This document shows, piece after piece, positions 3,889 to 9,682 of a stretch of DNA of 64,000 nt. Numbering within the stretch: the stretch's first letter is position 1; each line of letters starts with the position of its first letter. Both the position numbers and the translations under genes were made by a program. The notes beneath the pieces are model-generated. The model saw only the letters and a program-made list of their open reading frames with translations. It had not been told where the DNA came from and searched no databases. The DNA lies in contig CAIUSO010000084.1 in NCBI GenBank assembly GCA_903901875.1, positions 1 through 64,000 on the forward strand, in the 5' to 3' direction. Source of the DNA: an uncultured Geobacteraceae bacterium (GTDB lineage Bacteria > Desulfobacterota > Desulfuromonadia > Geobacterales > Pseudopelobacteraceae).

Positions 3889-6800
3889 TTAGTCACGCCG
3901 AAACCATTTTTCAATCATACCAGCCATCTCCTCTTTTTTGACCGGTTTTGATAGATAATCGTCCATTCCACTTTCAATGCACTTTTCACGGTCACCCTGC
4001 ATCGCGTTGGCTGTCATTGCTATGATTGGAACACTGTGATTGAGGACTTTCGAATCGTTATCGCGAATAACTTGAGTTGCTTCAAAACCATCCATCTCGG
4101 GCATCAGACAATCCATAAGCACCAAATCATAGTGGATAAGCTCAAGTGCCCGGACCGCTTCGAAGCCATTGGCTACGACGTCTGCCTTGCATCCGATTTT
4201 ATTTAGTATGTTCTGAGCAACTTTCTGGTTGATGATGTTGTCCTCAGCCAGCAGGATACGTATGCCCCGTGCAGCGCATTCAGCCACAGTATAGCGTGTA
4301 ACTATTCCTTGAGGTTGCTTTAGATTCTCAGGATCAGTAGTGTTTCCACCAAGAATCAGTGAAATACAATCACGCAGCTGCGACTGGCGCACCGGCTTGG
4401 CCAGATACCCGGCAAATCCTATCTGTTCCAGAATGGCGGCATCTCCACGTTGGCCAATAGATGTCACCATTACCATCAGGGTTGGTTCCAGAAGCGGGTC
4501 AGCCTTGATCCGCTTTCCCAGTTCCTGACCGTCCATGCCTGGCATTTCATGATCCAACAGGGCAATCTTAAAAGGATCTCCATCTTGTACACCCTTTGAC
4601 AGTAGTTCCAGGGCTTCATTGCCATCAATCGCAGCTTCATATCGACAACCCCAATGATTTAAGAGAGTCGTCAGCAGCATCCGGTTGGTCGCGTTGTCGT
4701 CAACTACAAGTATCCGAATCCCGGTAATATCTATGCTTACAAAATTGCCGGAAGGCTCAGAATGCGGTACTGCTTTTAGTAACTGTTTTTCAAAACATGC
4801 TTTGAACCAGAAGGTTGAGCCTTTACCCTCCTCACTGGTAACGCCGATCTCGCCTCCCATCAGTTCTGTAAGTTGCTTACAAATGGCAAGTCCCAGACCT
4901 GTACCACCGTATTTGCGGGTGGTGGATCCGTCCACTTGAGTGAATGGGGCAAAGAGAGCGTTAATTCGGTTAGCTGGTATACCTATGCCGGTATCATGAA
5001 TCTCAAAGAGGATAGTGGCATGTTCATGATCAGTGGAGGCGAGCGAGGCACTGATTATTATCTCACCATGTTGGGTAAACTTGATGGAGTTGCCAGTCAG
5101 GTTGGTGATAATCTGGCGGAGTCTCCCAGGATCTCCTCGCAGTAAGGAAGGTATCTCCGGATCAATCCGACATATCAATTCCAGCTTTTTGTCATCCGCT
5201 CTCAGTGCAAGCAGTTCGGCAGTATCTTCCAAAGTGACTCTTAAGTCGAAATTGAGTATTTCCAGATCCATTTTACCGGCTTCGATCTTTGAAAAATCAA
5301 GTATGTCGTTGATTAGCGCAAGGAGATTTTCACCGCTCTTGCGCACAATTTCTGCATATTCGTGCTGTTCTGCGTTTAGTCCGCTTTCCAGCAACAGATT
5401 AGTCATGCCGATAACGCCATTCATCGGGGTGCGGATTTCATGACTCATCGTGGCCAGGAATGAACTTTTGGCCTTAGTGGCCGTTTCAGCCTTTTCTTTT
5501 GCGGCGGTTAACTGATGCAGAATATATTTCTTTTCAGTTATGTCATGGGCAATTCCGGTTGTACCTACTACTATTCCCTTCTCGTCAAACAGCGGAGTTT
5601 TATAGGTTTGGAGCCACTTTATGCCGTCAGGAGTGCTTATCGCTTCTTCTGTCTGTTTCTTCTGGCCTAAGGCACATACCTCACGATCATCTGCAATAAA
5701 TCCTTGAGCCATTTCCTCAGGGAACAGATCAAGATCATTTTTGCCGATACATTCTTCTATGGTTAGGCCGCAAGCCTGTGCATATGGCTCGTTTATCATC
5801 TCAAGGCGGCTCTCGCTGTCTTTAAGCCATGCCATCATAGGCAGGTTGTCAAGAATTGCACGCTGGCGAAGCAATAACCTGGTGTTGTGTATCTCGGACT
5901 CTTTACGAACTGTGATATCTTCATATATGCCAAGAAGACCAATAATGTTATCAGCTTCATTGTGAAGCGGTACTTTAGATGTACTGAGCCAGATAGTAGT
6001 ACCATGAGGTGTGGTCTGAGGTTCATCATAAAATAGTTTGGGAACTCCTGACTCAATTATTTTTTGGTCATCAGTTCGGTAAAACTCAGCTTGATCCTTC
6101 CAGGCCAATTGGAAGTCGTTCTTGCCGATTATTTCATCCGCATTTGCCAATCCGGCATCTTTGGCAAAAAGGTTATTGGCACCCAGATAATGTAGATCTA
6201 TACTTTTCCAGAAAATACGTACCGGCGCGTTGTTGATGATCGTATTGAGTAGTTTGTTTGAGTTAAGGATTGCGTCGGAGGCTCGTTTTTGCTCAGTCAC
6301 ATTGCGGAATGACCATACTCTGCCACATTTCGGTGAATTGGCCTGTTGCTGTGGAAAAGAAAATCGCTCGAAAATCTTGCCGTCCTTGAACTGTACAGTA
6401 TCAAAACTGCTCTCATGCACATTGTACAAACGTTCAACTTCCTTCAAAAACAGTTCCGGTTCCAACAATTGCATCAGTACATGGGCAAGCAGGGCATTGT
6501 CATCTTTAGTCTCCAGAATTGCTTCTGGAATATTCCATAGTTCACTAAAGCGGTTATTGTAAAACAGGATTTTCCCGTCACCTCCGACAGAAAGTATGCC
6601 ATCAGCTGTTGCATTGAGGGTCGTGCTCAAACTATTTTTCAACTCAAGTAACGTTTTTTCTACCTGTTTTCGTTCGGTTATGTCAGTTGAAATGCCGCAC
6701 AACCCATATATTTTGCCACTGTTATCTCGGAGCGGAATTTTAACCGTCCAAAATGTGCGACCGACAACGACATCTACCGTTAGGTCGGTCTCTTCTCTCT

Positions 6801-7337: not shown

Positions 7338-7573
7338 TCATTCTATATGATCTGCGGCGGTTTCATCCCAAGGAATAACAACCAATCTCGATACGAAGTT
7401 ATCAATTTCGCGCCGTATGACAATTCCTTTAGGATGGCGAGCTGCACCGTAATATAATTCAGCGAGTACTATTGCTGAAATGCATATATTTCCGGCACCA
7501 ACCTCTTCAAATTGAAGCAGGATGATTTTTGAGGATGTAACTGCAGATATTTTGTATCGAGCATATAGCGCAT
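7338..7573 (-). pseudogene. Decayed vapC toxin (PIN domain)
   Basis: The gene starts MRYMLDT at ATG 7573, overlapping the vapB stop as TGATG, the usual vapBC arrangement. The VapC sequence then continues in two other frames: CSYILKNHPASI, and next FEEVGAGNICISAIVLAELY...PWDETAADHIE. At least two small indels therefore broke it. It ends where about 45 further residues with the second acidic cluster should follow. The first active-site aspartate and the conserved glutamate can still be read, but no functional toxin can be made. Confidence 0.88.
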
Positions 7574-7803
7574 CAAAACAACTCCCCTGTTTCAGGAGGG
7601 ACATCGTTTCTATCGGAAAGAAAATCAGTTGGTACCTTTGAGGGTTGTGAGAAAAAGTCATCCCAACACTCTGGCTTAGGCCGTAAAATAATTGCGTCAC
7701 CTTGACGCTCAATGAAAACTTTATGGGTAGAAAACCGGAATTCAGCGGGCAAACGCACCGCCTGACTACGACCGTTCTGAAATATTTTAGCAGTCATATT
7801 CAT
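7573..7803 (-). CDS. vapB: VapB/VagC-type antitoxin, intact
   Basis: A 76-aa AbrB/MazE-fold antitoxin with the signature AKIFQNGRSQAVRLPAEFRF and a C-terminal toxin-binding tail. Such proteins neutralise the VapC ribonuclease and bind their own promoter. The ATG at 7803 follows a G-rich ribosome site (AAGGGGGGG); a longer frame upstream is not supported. Its partner toxin directly downstream is frameshifted and truncated, so this antitoxin is orphaned. It may persist neutrally or protect against related VapC toxins. Confidence 0.9.
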   Translation of the reverse strand: MNMTAKIFQNGRSQAVRLPAEFRFSTHKVFIERQGDAIILRPKPECWDDFFSQPSKVPTDFLSDRNDVPPETGELF

Positions 7804-7896
7804 CGTGCCCCCCCCTTTCTTGGTATATATCAACGACATATCACGTTCTAGCAGTGTTTGATAGCATCTTTTCCTGCGGTGGAACATTATTCATAT

Positions 7897-7975: not shown

Positions 7976-8103
7976 TTGTCCTTGTCATACATTTTTACCA
8001 GCCTATTTTCCGACAATCTGCTATCGGCGTTACGTTTGATGAGAATGCCATTTTCGACTTTTGGGCGATGAGCGGGTGAATGCATACTGCCAACGCAAAG
8101 GGC

Positions 8104-8132
8104 TTGACATTAGCCACCTGTAATTATATACA
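8104..8132 (+). promoter_or_regulatory. Sigma-70-type promoter for the riboswitch transcript
   Basis: TTGACA (8104-8109) and TATACA (8127-8132) are 17 bp apart, about 40 bp upstream of the riboswitch. The -35 is perfect and the -10 matches 4 of 6. Confidence 0.55.
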
Positions 8133-8169
8133 CGTAACGTAATGTTTCTCTGACATAGCCAATGATAAT

Positions 8170-8236
8170 AGCAAACTCAGGGCAACCTGGGGACGCAAAG
8201 CTACGAGTCCAGTGAATGGATAGTCGGGTTGCCAGA
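8170..8236 (+). promoter_or_regulatory. GEMM-I cyclic-dinucleotide riboswitch
   Basis: The conserved blocks CAGGGCAACC (8178-8187), GGGACGCAAAGC (8190-8201) and GGGTTGCC (8226-8233) occur in the order and spacing of GEMM-I aptamers, with a variable P2 arm of GAGTCC...GGATAGTC type between the last two. The base equivalent to G20 of the Vc2 aptamer is G (8182), which predicts c-di-GMP rather than the cAMP-GMP preference of Geobacter variants carrying A there. An intrinsic terminator follows 14 bp later, so control is most likely at transcription termination. Confidence 0.88.
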
Positions 8237-8249
8237 TGGAAAAGCGTGT

Positions 8250-8278
8250 AAGCCTTCTCTCTGTGAAAGGCTTTTTTT
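8250..8278 (+). terminator. Riboswitch expression-platform terminator
   Basis: AAGCCTT (8250-8256) pairs with AAGGCTT (8267-8273) around a 10-nt loop, followed by a T run to 8278. It lies between the aptamer and the ORF at 8332, so antitermination or termination would decide expression of that ORF. Confidence 0.85.
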
Positions 8279-8331
8279 GTTGGATTCGCGTTTTTCTTCT
8301 TATAGTTCGTTATGTAGAGAGGGGTATAATC

Positions 8332-8583
8332 GTGATCGAAAAGACGGTAAGAAACATAGCTGCTGAATTAGGAATACGTCCTCCCAAGGCATCTATTACA
8401 GACGGCCGTAGGCTTGGGTGCCGTGATATGCACCTGATGACACTGGAGTTTGCCAGTAAAAAAGCCTCTGTTCTGATCTTTGAGTCCGACCTGGATCAAC
8501 TTCGTAATAGCATTTGCAGTGACAGACTGGAGGAGAATATCAGGACGGCACTTACACGATTGGATAAGATGGTCAGTCCATAA
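8332..8583 (+). CDS. Unknown 83-aa protein under GEMM riboswitch control
   Basis: Starts at GTG 8332 with AGAGAGGGG upstream; the longer frame from 8236 would begin inside the riboswitch-terminator and is rejected. The protein (VIEKTVRNIAAELGI...LTRLDKMVSP) is soluble, mixed alpha/beta in appearance, with no signal peptide or transmembrane segment. I do not recognise a family. GEMM riboswitches usually control motility, surface attachment, extracellular electron transfer or c-di-GMP turnover, so a role in one of these is a context guess. It converges on the glycosyltransferase gene with a 19-bp gap. Confidence 0.75.
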   Translation: MIEKTVRNIAAELGIRPPKASITDGRRLGCRDMHLMTLEFASKKASVLIFESDLDQLRNSICSDRLEENIRTALTRLDKMVSP

Positions 8584-8602
8584 CTCGTTAATACAGCACC
8601 AC

Positions 8603-9682
8603 TTAATGGACTGTGGCCTTAAGAGGGCATTCGGTGTGCCGGTTGATAAAGATAAAGTCCCGCTGTATGGCAAAATTAGCCAGAAACACGATTGATTCAG
8701 CAACAACTTTTGCAACAACTACCGGGAAGTTCAGGAACATCACAAAGCCTTTTATAAGCAAAAAGGAGACAAAACCGGAAATGCATACGAGAATGAGATA
8801 TTTGGGGAATGTGGAGGTTGTTTTCTGATTGGAGTAAAAGACGGCCTTTTTTATGGCGGTGTAATTGAAGCCCATTGACACCAGCCGGGCCGAAGCCTGA
8901 CTGGCAGAGATGCTGCTGCTTAAATGATAGACAAAGATGAAGACCGTGTAGTCGATCACCGCTGACAGAAGTGCGGCAAGCGTAAAACGAAAGAGAACGA
9001 AGTATATTTTCATTGAGTCGATGAGAGGGTTGAAATGTGAGGATTTATTTCCTTCCAGATATACTGTGCTGATTGACTCTTCTATAATCTGGCGACCGGT
9101 ATACTTGCACGCTAACAGCATGTCGAGCTCGAATTCGTAACCGTTGGCACTCGTTTTAAGGAGCGACGGAATCATCGCTTGGGGAATTCCTCTCAGCCCT
9201 GACTGTGTATCAGAGATTTTTTTCCCCGTAAGCACACGGAAAATTGTTCGGGTGAAACTATTGCCGAATCTGCTCCGCATTGGGACAGCCCCATCAAAAG
9301 CCCGCGCACCAATAATCAGACTCTCCGGATTTTTTCTGAGGGTCATGGCGACCTTTGTTGCGTCAACCGCCAGATGCTGCCCATCGGCATCCACCGCTAC
9401 CACACCGATACACTCTTTATAATGGCAGTAAATATAGTTCAGGCCAGCCTTGAGCGCAGCACCCTTACCAAGGTTGACGGCATGGTGCAGTACGGTAACA
9501 TTCTGAATTTTCTCACTATCACTAAAACAGTGATCGAATTCAGGGGCACTTCCGTCATTAACCACGATAACTGCGTCAAAAACACCTGCAGCCAGTTTCT
9601 GGACTAACGAAACAAGTTGTTCAGATGGGTTATATGACGGAATGAGTGCAATAACCTGCATGTAATTTTTCCCATGGAACAT
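8603..9682 (-). CDS. GT2 glycosyltransferase fused to a GtrA membrane domain
   Basis: About 359 aa. The N-terminal half is a GT-A family 2 glycosyltransferase (IALIPSYNP, VVNDGS, then VAVDADGQH with the DxD metal motif), like polyprenyl-phosphate mannose/glucose synthases. The C-terminal 120 residues carry four transmembrane helices of the GtrA type that flip or anchor lipid-linked sugars. It probably makes polyprenyl-phosphate sugar donors at the inner membrane. The ATG at 9682 has TAAGGA 6 nt upstream and starts 14 bp after the TPR gene ends, so the two form an operon. The neighbour's GT-C fold fits use of such a lipid donor. Confidence 0.88.
   Translation of the reverse strand: MFHGKNYMQVIALIPSYNPSEQLVSLVQKLAAGVFDAVIVVNDGSAPEFDHCFSDSEKIQNVTVLHHAVNLGKGAALKAGLNYIYCHYKECIGVVAVDADGQHLAVDATKVAMTLRKNPESLIIGARAFDGAVPMRSRFGNSFTRTIFRVLTGKKISDTQSGLRGIPQAMIPSLLKTSANGYEFELDMLLACKYTGRQIIEESISTVYLEGNKSSHFNPLIDSMKIYFVLFRFTLAALLSAVIDYTVFIFVYHLSSSISASQASARLVSMGFNYTAIKKAVFYSNQKTTSTFPKYLILVCISGFVSFLLIKGFVMFLNFPVVVAKVVAESIVFLANFAIQRDFIFINRHTECPLKATVH

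Follow-up and report, generated by a model that had tools for sequence, protein, structure and literature searches.

A predicted cGAMP-preferring GEMM-I riboswitch upstream of a gene for an unnamed 83-amino-acid protein in an uncultured Geobacteraceae bacterium

The window analysed here, a stretch of 64,000 nucleotides from an uncultured Geobacteraceae bacterium (assembly GCA_903901875.1, contig CAIUSO010000084.1), carries a riboswitch followed by a single small ORF. The features of this locus, all on the plus strand, are as follows:

8104..8132, +, putative promoter TTGACA-17-TATACA (read from the sequence; TTGAC conserved on contig C35 of the sister genome G004)
8160..8236, +, GEMM-I / c-di-GMP-I aptamer (RF01051, 62.6 bits; RF03168, 64.4 bits, below its gathering score of 65.9)
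8170..8170, +, A at the Vc2 G20 position, within the A-A-C signature of cGAMP aptamers (RF03168 and RF03167 alignments; 27-nt spacing)
8233..8263, +, predicted antiterminator hairpin CAGA-U-GGAA / UUCU-C-UCUG (MFE folds of transcripts ending at 8264-8276)
8250..8278, +, intrinsic terminator hairpin with U7 run (folding; conserved in G004; absent from the scanner list)
8316..8324, +, ribosome-binding site AGAGAGGGG (read from the sequence)
8332..8583, +, 83-aa protein with GTG start, unnamed family, predicted alpha-beta-beta-beta-alpha fold (profile searches, AlphaFold2, dN/dS)

An Rfam search of the 64-kb window returned a single match at gathering score, the GEMM-I / c-di-GMP-I aptamer RF01051 (gathering score 35). 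Its E-value of 7e-10 puts the aptamer beyond chance, and an alignment that covers model positions 1-87 of 87 places it in the GEMM-I class. In a narrow search of 8000-8700 the top-scoring model was RF03168, which fell just short of its own gathering score. The ligand-contacting core is intact in the alignments to both models. By single-sequence folding, the energy of 8150-8280 alone was not better than that of shuffles (z -0.35). P1 of this copy is weak: scored as a simple duplex of the nearest 20 nt in the 18 GEMMs of the window's own genome (G000), it reaches -2.9 kcal/mol, compared with -3.7 to -10.6 kcal/mol in the other 17. A longer P1 starting at 8142 was present in only some folds of 3'-shortened transcripts. 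Additionally, the CTCTG lead and the core lie about 13 bases apart in this copy, and, counted by eye, 8 of the other 17 have CTCTG immediately next to the core.

The initial annotation described a promoter, an aptamer, a terminator and a single small ORF in this order. The Rfam match, the terminator recovered by folding and a conserved ORF all bear out a GEMM riboswitch on the plus strand, while the promoter is plausible but weak. Its TTGACA (8104-8109) and TATACA (8127-8132) are 17 nt apart, the -10 element matches at 4 of 6 positions, and a promoter scanner did not list the pair. On G004 contig C35 the TTGAC is conserved at a nearly equal distance (3-nt gap), and the lead there is identical to the window at 16 of 20 bases; the 17 other GEMMs of G000 reach at most 10 of 20. 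The ORF runs for 83 codons from a GTG at 8332 to the stop at 8583, with AGAGAGGGG seven bases 5' of the start. In 29 of the 30 family rows, for which the start nearest to the match was chosen, there is a start codon at the position of this GTG or one residue away. A longer ORF of 115 amino acids from 8236 was rejected: it overruns the terminator, and coding-type conservation with G004 starts only at 8332. Just upstream of the riboswitch, on the minus strand (7338-7887), lies a gene pair that we take to be VapBC-like; a similar ORF is found at L089 11008-11406.

The 83-aa protein belongs to no recognised family, as had been proposed, giving no Pfam and no NCBIfam match above cut-off. Among 30 homologues, Pfam and NCBIfam hits were scattered, each limited to one or two members and none better than E 0.02. 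The protein was matched in 23 of 58 genomes, and a 30-row profile in 32 of 141 genomes of the order and 33 of 277 genomes of the class, the own genome being included each time; 32 of these 33 fall in one taxonomic family. The seven named hits are MAGs labelled Geobacteraceae, Geobacter, Desulfuromonadaceae, Deltaproteobacteria or Proteobacteria. A tblastn search at E 1e-3 of 72,556 plasmid and 50,697 phage records did not find the protein. The G004 orthologue is 71-73% identical, with a dN of 0.18 against a dS of 0.43, as expected for a real gene under purifying selection. Ten residues are near-invariant (M1, G14, G25, G29, C30, L66, E67, R71, L74 and L77). This sequence evidence marks the ORF as a genuine gene whose family has no name.

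Comparison of ORF lists by eye revealed no neighbourhood common to all 18 loci. Close relatives share a gene neighbourhood (L051 with L053; L052, L054 and L055), and a 418- or 419-aa ORF adjoins the family member in L086, L087 and L091. One 170-aa protein (L082 471-980) apparently contains the family domain twice, with a similar-looking half in front. Its gene sits between a tmRNA gene (L082 1-244) and an ORF that is presumably SmpB-like, and a homologue is encoded in G004 (L083 285-794).

AlphaFold2, run from eight sequences, predicted a helix-strand-strand-strand-helix fold with a pLDDT of 91.2 and a pTM of 0.79. A sequence search for relatives of known structure returned at best a designed protein (E 0.11), and Foldseek gave no match at E 0.001 or better in the PDB (best E 0.11). 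At the same threshold no match was found in a viral library, where the best row was an uncharacterised 78-aa Aeromonas phage protein (E 0.024, probability 1.00, TM 0.58-0.61) and the next rows were small phage proteins of unknown function. VIA-align, with rows drawn from Foldseek's best 1000 chains, gave no standout: Z was at most 6.2 (top row clusterin), which the tool grades as middling, and the rows include clusterin, LptE, HPF, dsRBD and Acb4. The dsRBD, SRP9/14 and HPF folds have the alpha-beta-beta-beta-alpha order seen in our predicted model. This likeness comes without a significant structural or sequence match; the dsRBD comparison gave a Foldseek E of about 0.5-1.3, a TM of at most 0.47 and a VIA-align Z of 3.3-3.8. 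The comparison with the fold of Acb4, which binds cGAMP, and T7 Gp1.2 gave Z values of 3.5 and 4.0, again in the middling range. The fold of the 83-aa protein is confidently predicted, without a clear relative.

The initial annotation read the base equivalent to G20 as G and predicted c-di-GMP as the ligand. We fixed the numbering of this position through two Rfam variant models from the same clan as the window's aptamer, RF03167 (c-di-GMP-I-GGC) and RF03168 (c-di-GMP-I-UAU), which we take to be named after the bases at Vc2 positions 20, 47 and 92. The model columns agree with these letters: the column preceding the conserved GC-AAA is G in RF03167 and U in RF03168, and the column 27 beyond position 20 is G and A, respectively. 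A 20-to-47 spacing of 27 nt also appears for Vc2, Vc1 and Bc1 in the consulted parts of PMC4744006 and PMC11218506. In the alignments to both models, Vc2 position 20 corresponds to A8170, A47 to A8197 and C92 to C8232, giving a triplet of A-A-C in the window, where RF03168 has U-A-U and RF03167 has G-G-C. The base is therefore A rather than the G that defines c-di-GMP-specific GEMM-Ia, and A20, A47 and C92 together are the bases of GEMM-Ib (cGAMP). The ligand call was thus overturned; the adjacent base, a G that opens the next helix, was probably taken for position 20. According to the sections consulted of PMC6456294 and PMC9481103, A20 marks cGAMP-preferring aptamers; the latter associates G or A at position 20 with binding of c-di-GMP or cGAMP, and the former describes an A20G mutation that switches Gmet_0970 to c-di-GMP sensing. 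The window's A20 aptamer most likely prefers 3',3'-cGAMP.

A possible source of this ligand was sought in the own genome, which is 4.3 Mb in size and 99.76% complete. It encodes 25 GGDEF domains at E 1e-8 or better, and the GTP/ATP selectivity residue is Asp in 23 of them (20 called by script, three by eye), Gly in one degenerate domain and Thr in one. Ser, usual for Hypr enzymes, occurs in none of them at this residue (the Asp344 position). Ser or Thr here is given as the Hypr signature in the part of PMC9140294 available to us. The Thr-GGDEF protein (L077/L104, G000:C45:37233-38324) has a hydrophobic N-terminal half and Met at the cross-dimer position, a residue that is Arg in 18, Ala in one and Val in one of the 20 script-read domains. 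It was matched in 21 of the 39 genomes of the genus, and Thr, the cross-dimer Met and GGDEF are invariant in all 19 orthologous loci that include the domain; two fragment loci without the domain stand outside this count (loci L104, L105-L122). GEMM-like A20 cores, identified with a strict pattern, occur in five of the 39 genomes, all five with the Thr-GGDEF gene (Fisher p 0.035, post hoc, for related genomes and uncorrected for kinship). The 12 pattern hits kept in these genomes include the G004:C35 half aptamer; the A20 hits in G035 and G028 did not look GEMM-like on inspection by eye and were left out. Because only a small part of the 417 GEMM matches in the genus is caught by the strict A20 and G20 patterns, the counts are lower bounds. 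The SMODS domain (PF18144) had no match in the own genome. From its sequence, we regard the Thr-GGDEF protein as a candidate Thr-type Hypr cGAMP synthase.

Downstream of the aptamer, reading and folding of the sequence identified a terminator: the arms AAGCCTT and AAGGCTT form a hairpin at 8250-8273, a run of seven T occupies 8272-8278, and the fold energy is -8.8 kcal/mol, some 5' flank included. The hairpin is conserved in G004. A stock pattern scanner listed no terminator (0.4 expected in shuffles), probably because the loop exceeds its limit. The antiterminator takes in the aptamer's 3' flank and the terminator's 5' arm, and this competing fold, together with the terminator and its U-run, gives the locus by folding the layout of a terminating riboswitch. 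With aptamer and terminator both forced, the fold energy was -34.0 kcal/mol; the terminator alone forced gave -36.4 kcal/mol and the free antiterminator fold -36.5 kcal/mol. The latter two lie 0.1 kcal/mol apart, so the energies leave the switch direction undecided. The 3' side of P1 (about 8232-8241) does not overlap the terminator. Among the 16 GEMMs with a printed competing fold, about 13 show a similar pairing by eye; the window's own antiterminator came from the 8264-8276 transcript folds and not from this comparison. In permutations over the 18 GEMMs, neither the antiterminator (3021 of 10000 as good) nor the P1 pairing (5999 of 10000 as good) was significant, because the arms are alike across GEMMs.

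We propose that a short transcript from a promoter near 8104 would open with the A20 (GEMM-Ib) class-I aptamer, whose 3' flank could pair either into P1 or with the terminator's 5' arm as an antiterminator. Bound ligand would hold P1 and free the terminator arm, and transcription would stop; read-through would yield a single-gene mRNA for the 83-aa protein. The layout is thus predicted, from the modelled folds, to be an OFF switch like Cd1 of Clostridioides difficile, where in the account given in the consulted part of PMC9262584 antiterminator and aptamer compete and ligand promotes termination. Cd1, a c-di-GMP-I riboswitch, binds c-di-GMP and carries G where the window's aptamer has A, at the equivalent of position 20. 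The Geobacter GEMM-Ib riboswitches Gs1761 (pgcA), Gmet_0970 and pilM share the aptamer class, and for Gmet_0970 the source, as far as consulted, states the same A20. They also resemble the window's riboswitch in having a downstream terminator, a related host and many copies per genome. In contrast, the window's copy has a weak P1 and extra bases between the 5' lead and the core, its terminator does not overlap P1 (a layout of OFF rather than ON type), and its target is an unnamed 83-aa protein rather than a cytochrome or pilus gene.

In G004 a related riboswitch appears as two halves. Contig C128 starts inside a dispersed repeat and continues with the aptamer's 3' half, the terminator and the ORF. 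Contig C35 ends with a promoter-like lead, the 5' half of an A20 aptamer, the whole 167-nt repeat and 44 further bases. The repeat abuts both halves at the P3 loop (L125, about 6512-6678, on C35; L020, 1-72, on C128), and we infer that the halves, although on two contigs, form one locus. The 44-base tail does not match the aptamer's 3' half, and the genes upstream on C35 differ from those upstream of the window's riboswitch. The repeat, a hairpin that looks MITE- or REP-like, has 43 matches in G004 and about 18-19 in G000, with partial ones and the riboswitch itself counted. Folded alone, it forms a hairpin (-75.6 kcal/mol); when the halves are joined, the predicted fold preserves the aptamer core and lengthens P3. 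A literature search for inverted-repeat insertion in a riboswitch aptamer found a match that, in the part consulted, concerns giant-virus hairpins.

Lack of conservation of the ORF behind GEMM elements elsewhere was a refuting outcome named in the initial annotation, and it was largely observed. A cmscan of about 1.5 kb upstream per locus (only 215 bp in L020 and 930 bp in L046) found a GEMM within 1.5 kb of a family member in 1 of 30 loci, the window's own; the split remnant in G004 is the one addition. Among 13 further loci (12 of 6-12 kb, one of about 3 kb) there is a single GEMM, divergent from the family member (G104:C68; L089 5260-5338, minus). This divergent GEMM, which has G20 and a terminator, scores as c-di-GMP-I-GGC; downstream of it lies a small CxxCH-rich ORF. 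The riboswitch would have been placed recently before one gene copy only, as seen in the own genome and its sister G004, and the window's gene copy has probably captured it recently.

The 18 GEMM aptamers of the own genome carry A (7), G (5), C (5) or U (1) at position 20, with that of L009 set to G by eye. The C20 copies (L001, L002, L003, L007 and L008) and the U20 copy (L017) receive no ligand prediction from the G/A rule. Taking as regulated the long ORFs that start within 700 nt of each GEMM, we found sensory genes behind 10 of the 18, namely six chemoreceptors and four PAS-type sensors. Other targets are a STAS/RsbRD protein, an HU-like protein before a response regulator, a papain-like peptidase and a ParE/HTH pair; the remainder are two proteins without Pfam matches, one cut by a contig end, and the window's ORF. 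By eye, no U-run terminator is present between the L009 GEMM and its chemoreceptor gene, and this GEMM may act on translation. Riboswitch control would join the 83-aa protein to this regulon, and such company, read from sequence, is the sole hint to its role. That it is a small cytoplasmic regulator in a sensory programme is a speculative reading, to which we give a low probability.

Alternatives exist for both ligand and direction. The aptamer could sense c-di-GMP, or both dinucleotides, in the cell: canonical Asp prevails among the GGDEF domains (23 of 25), and the G. sulfurreducens switch before omcST is reported to respond to both dinucleotides (PMC6456294, where the consulted part leaves its position 20 unstated). 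Additionally, the A20 aptamer of PMC9481103, in the part consulted, retained much c-di-GMP affinity, perhaps only slightly reduced, so our ligand prediction is one of preference, not proof. Position 20 is nevertheless A, the selectivity for cGAMP of two GEMM-Ib aptamers from Geobacter is about 1200- and 1600-fold in the portions consulted of PMC6456294 and PMC8835794, and the genome holds a Thr-type Hypr candidate; we consider c-di-GMP sensing doubtful. An ON switch, whose ligand would block termination as it does in the pgcA and pilM riboswitches of Geobacter, is a real though lesser possibility. The genes behind G. sulfurreducens GEMM-Ib switches fall on deletion of the cGAMP synthase and are thus cGAMP-activated (PMC6456294, in part), pilM is ON (PMC9262584, likewise in part), and the fold energies here give no decision. 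In pilM, however, the 3' strand of P1 belongs to the terminator (same source), an overlap that the window's riboswitch does not have; its alternative hairpin uses the terminator's 5' arm instead, and the roughly 13 of 16 GEMMs noted above pair likewise. The predicted OFF direction is the one we retain.

The weak P1, and the sister aptamer split across contigs by the 167-nt element, could also point to a degenerating switch, an unresponsive leader with a leaky terminator. This seems quite improbable given the intact ligand-contacting core, a terminator conserved between both genomes, and an element that is itself a hairpin and, in the joined fold, extends P3 with the core pairs kept. A much stronger contender, which we place only a little short of even, is that the 83-aa protein is unrelated to cyclic dinucleotides and acquired a GEMM leader by chance, its real role lying elsewhere, for example in RNA binding. 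Such a capture would fit the finding of a nearby GEMM at only 1 of the 30 loci, the divergent GEMM before a CxxCH-rich ORF as the only one in 13 further loci, the want of a common neighbourhood, and a dsRBD-like topology with dsRBD, SRP9/14 and HPF rows among the weak fold matches. Against it, the terminator and half an aptamer persist before the G004 orthologue, and the pairing is therefore older than one genome. The analysis shows the aptamer, its A20, the terminator sequence, the coding gene, the family's distribution and the rarity of the pairing; which ligand is bound, in which direction the switch works, when it was captured and whether the protein is a regulator are inferred. With moderate confidence, the best explanation is a cGAMP-preferring A20 OFF switch, recently captured, that controls a protein of an unnamed family.

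Both the riboswitch class and its layout are known, and what is new is an unnamed small protein as the target in one lineage. The initial annotation suggested a new second-messenger output; this is possible, but a GEMM at 1 of 30 family loci makes the suggestion weak, and conservation gives it no support. In the boldest and, to us, unlikely version, an OFF switch for cGAMP, specific to this lineage and supplied by a Thr-type Hypr GGDEF enzyme, would have recruited an undescribed alpha-beta-beta-beta-alpha family as a new cGAMP output in Geobacteraceae-like bacteria, while in the sister genome a mobile inverted-repeat hairpin would have entered exactly at the P3 loop and been tolerated as a P3 extension. 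Correction of the ligand call matters for bench work, which would otherwise be aimed at the wrong messenger. The analysis also delimits a family of small proteins that neither Pfam nor NCBIfam names and whose fold is confidently predicted, and singles out the Thr-type GGDEF enzyme as a testable cGAMP synthase. The G004 copy may be a naturally occurring case of a riboswitch stem that tolerates a mobile hairpin within it.
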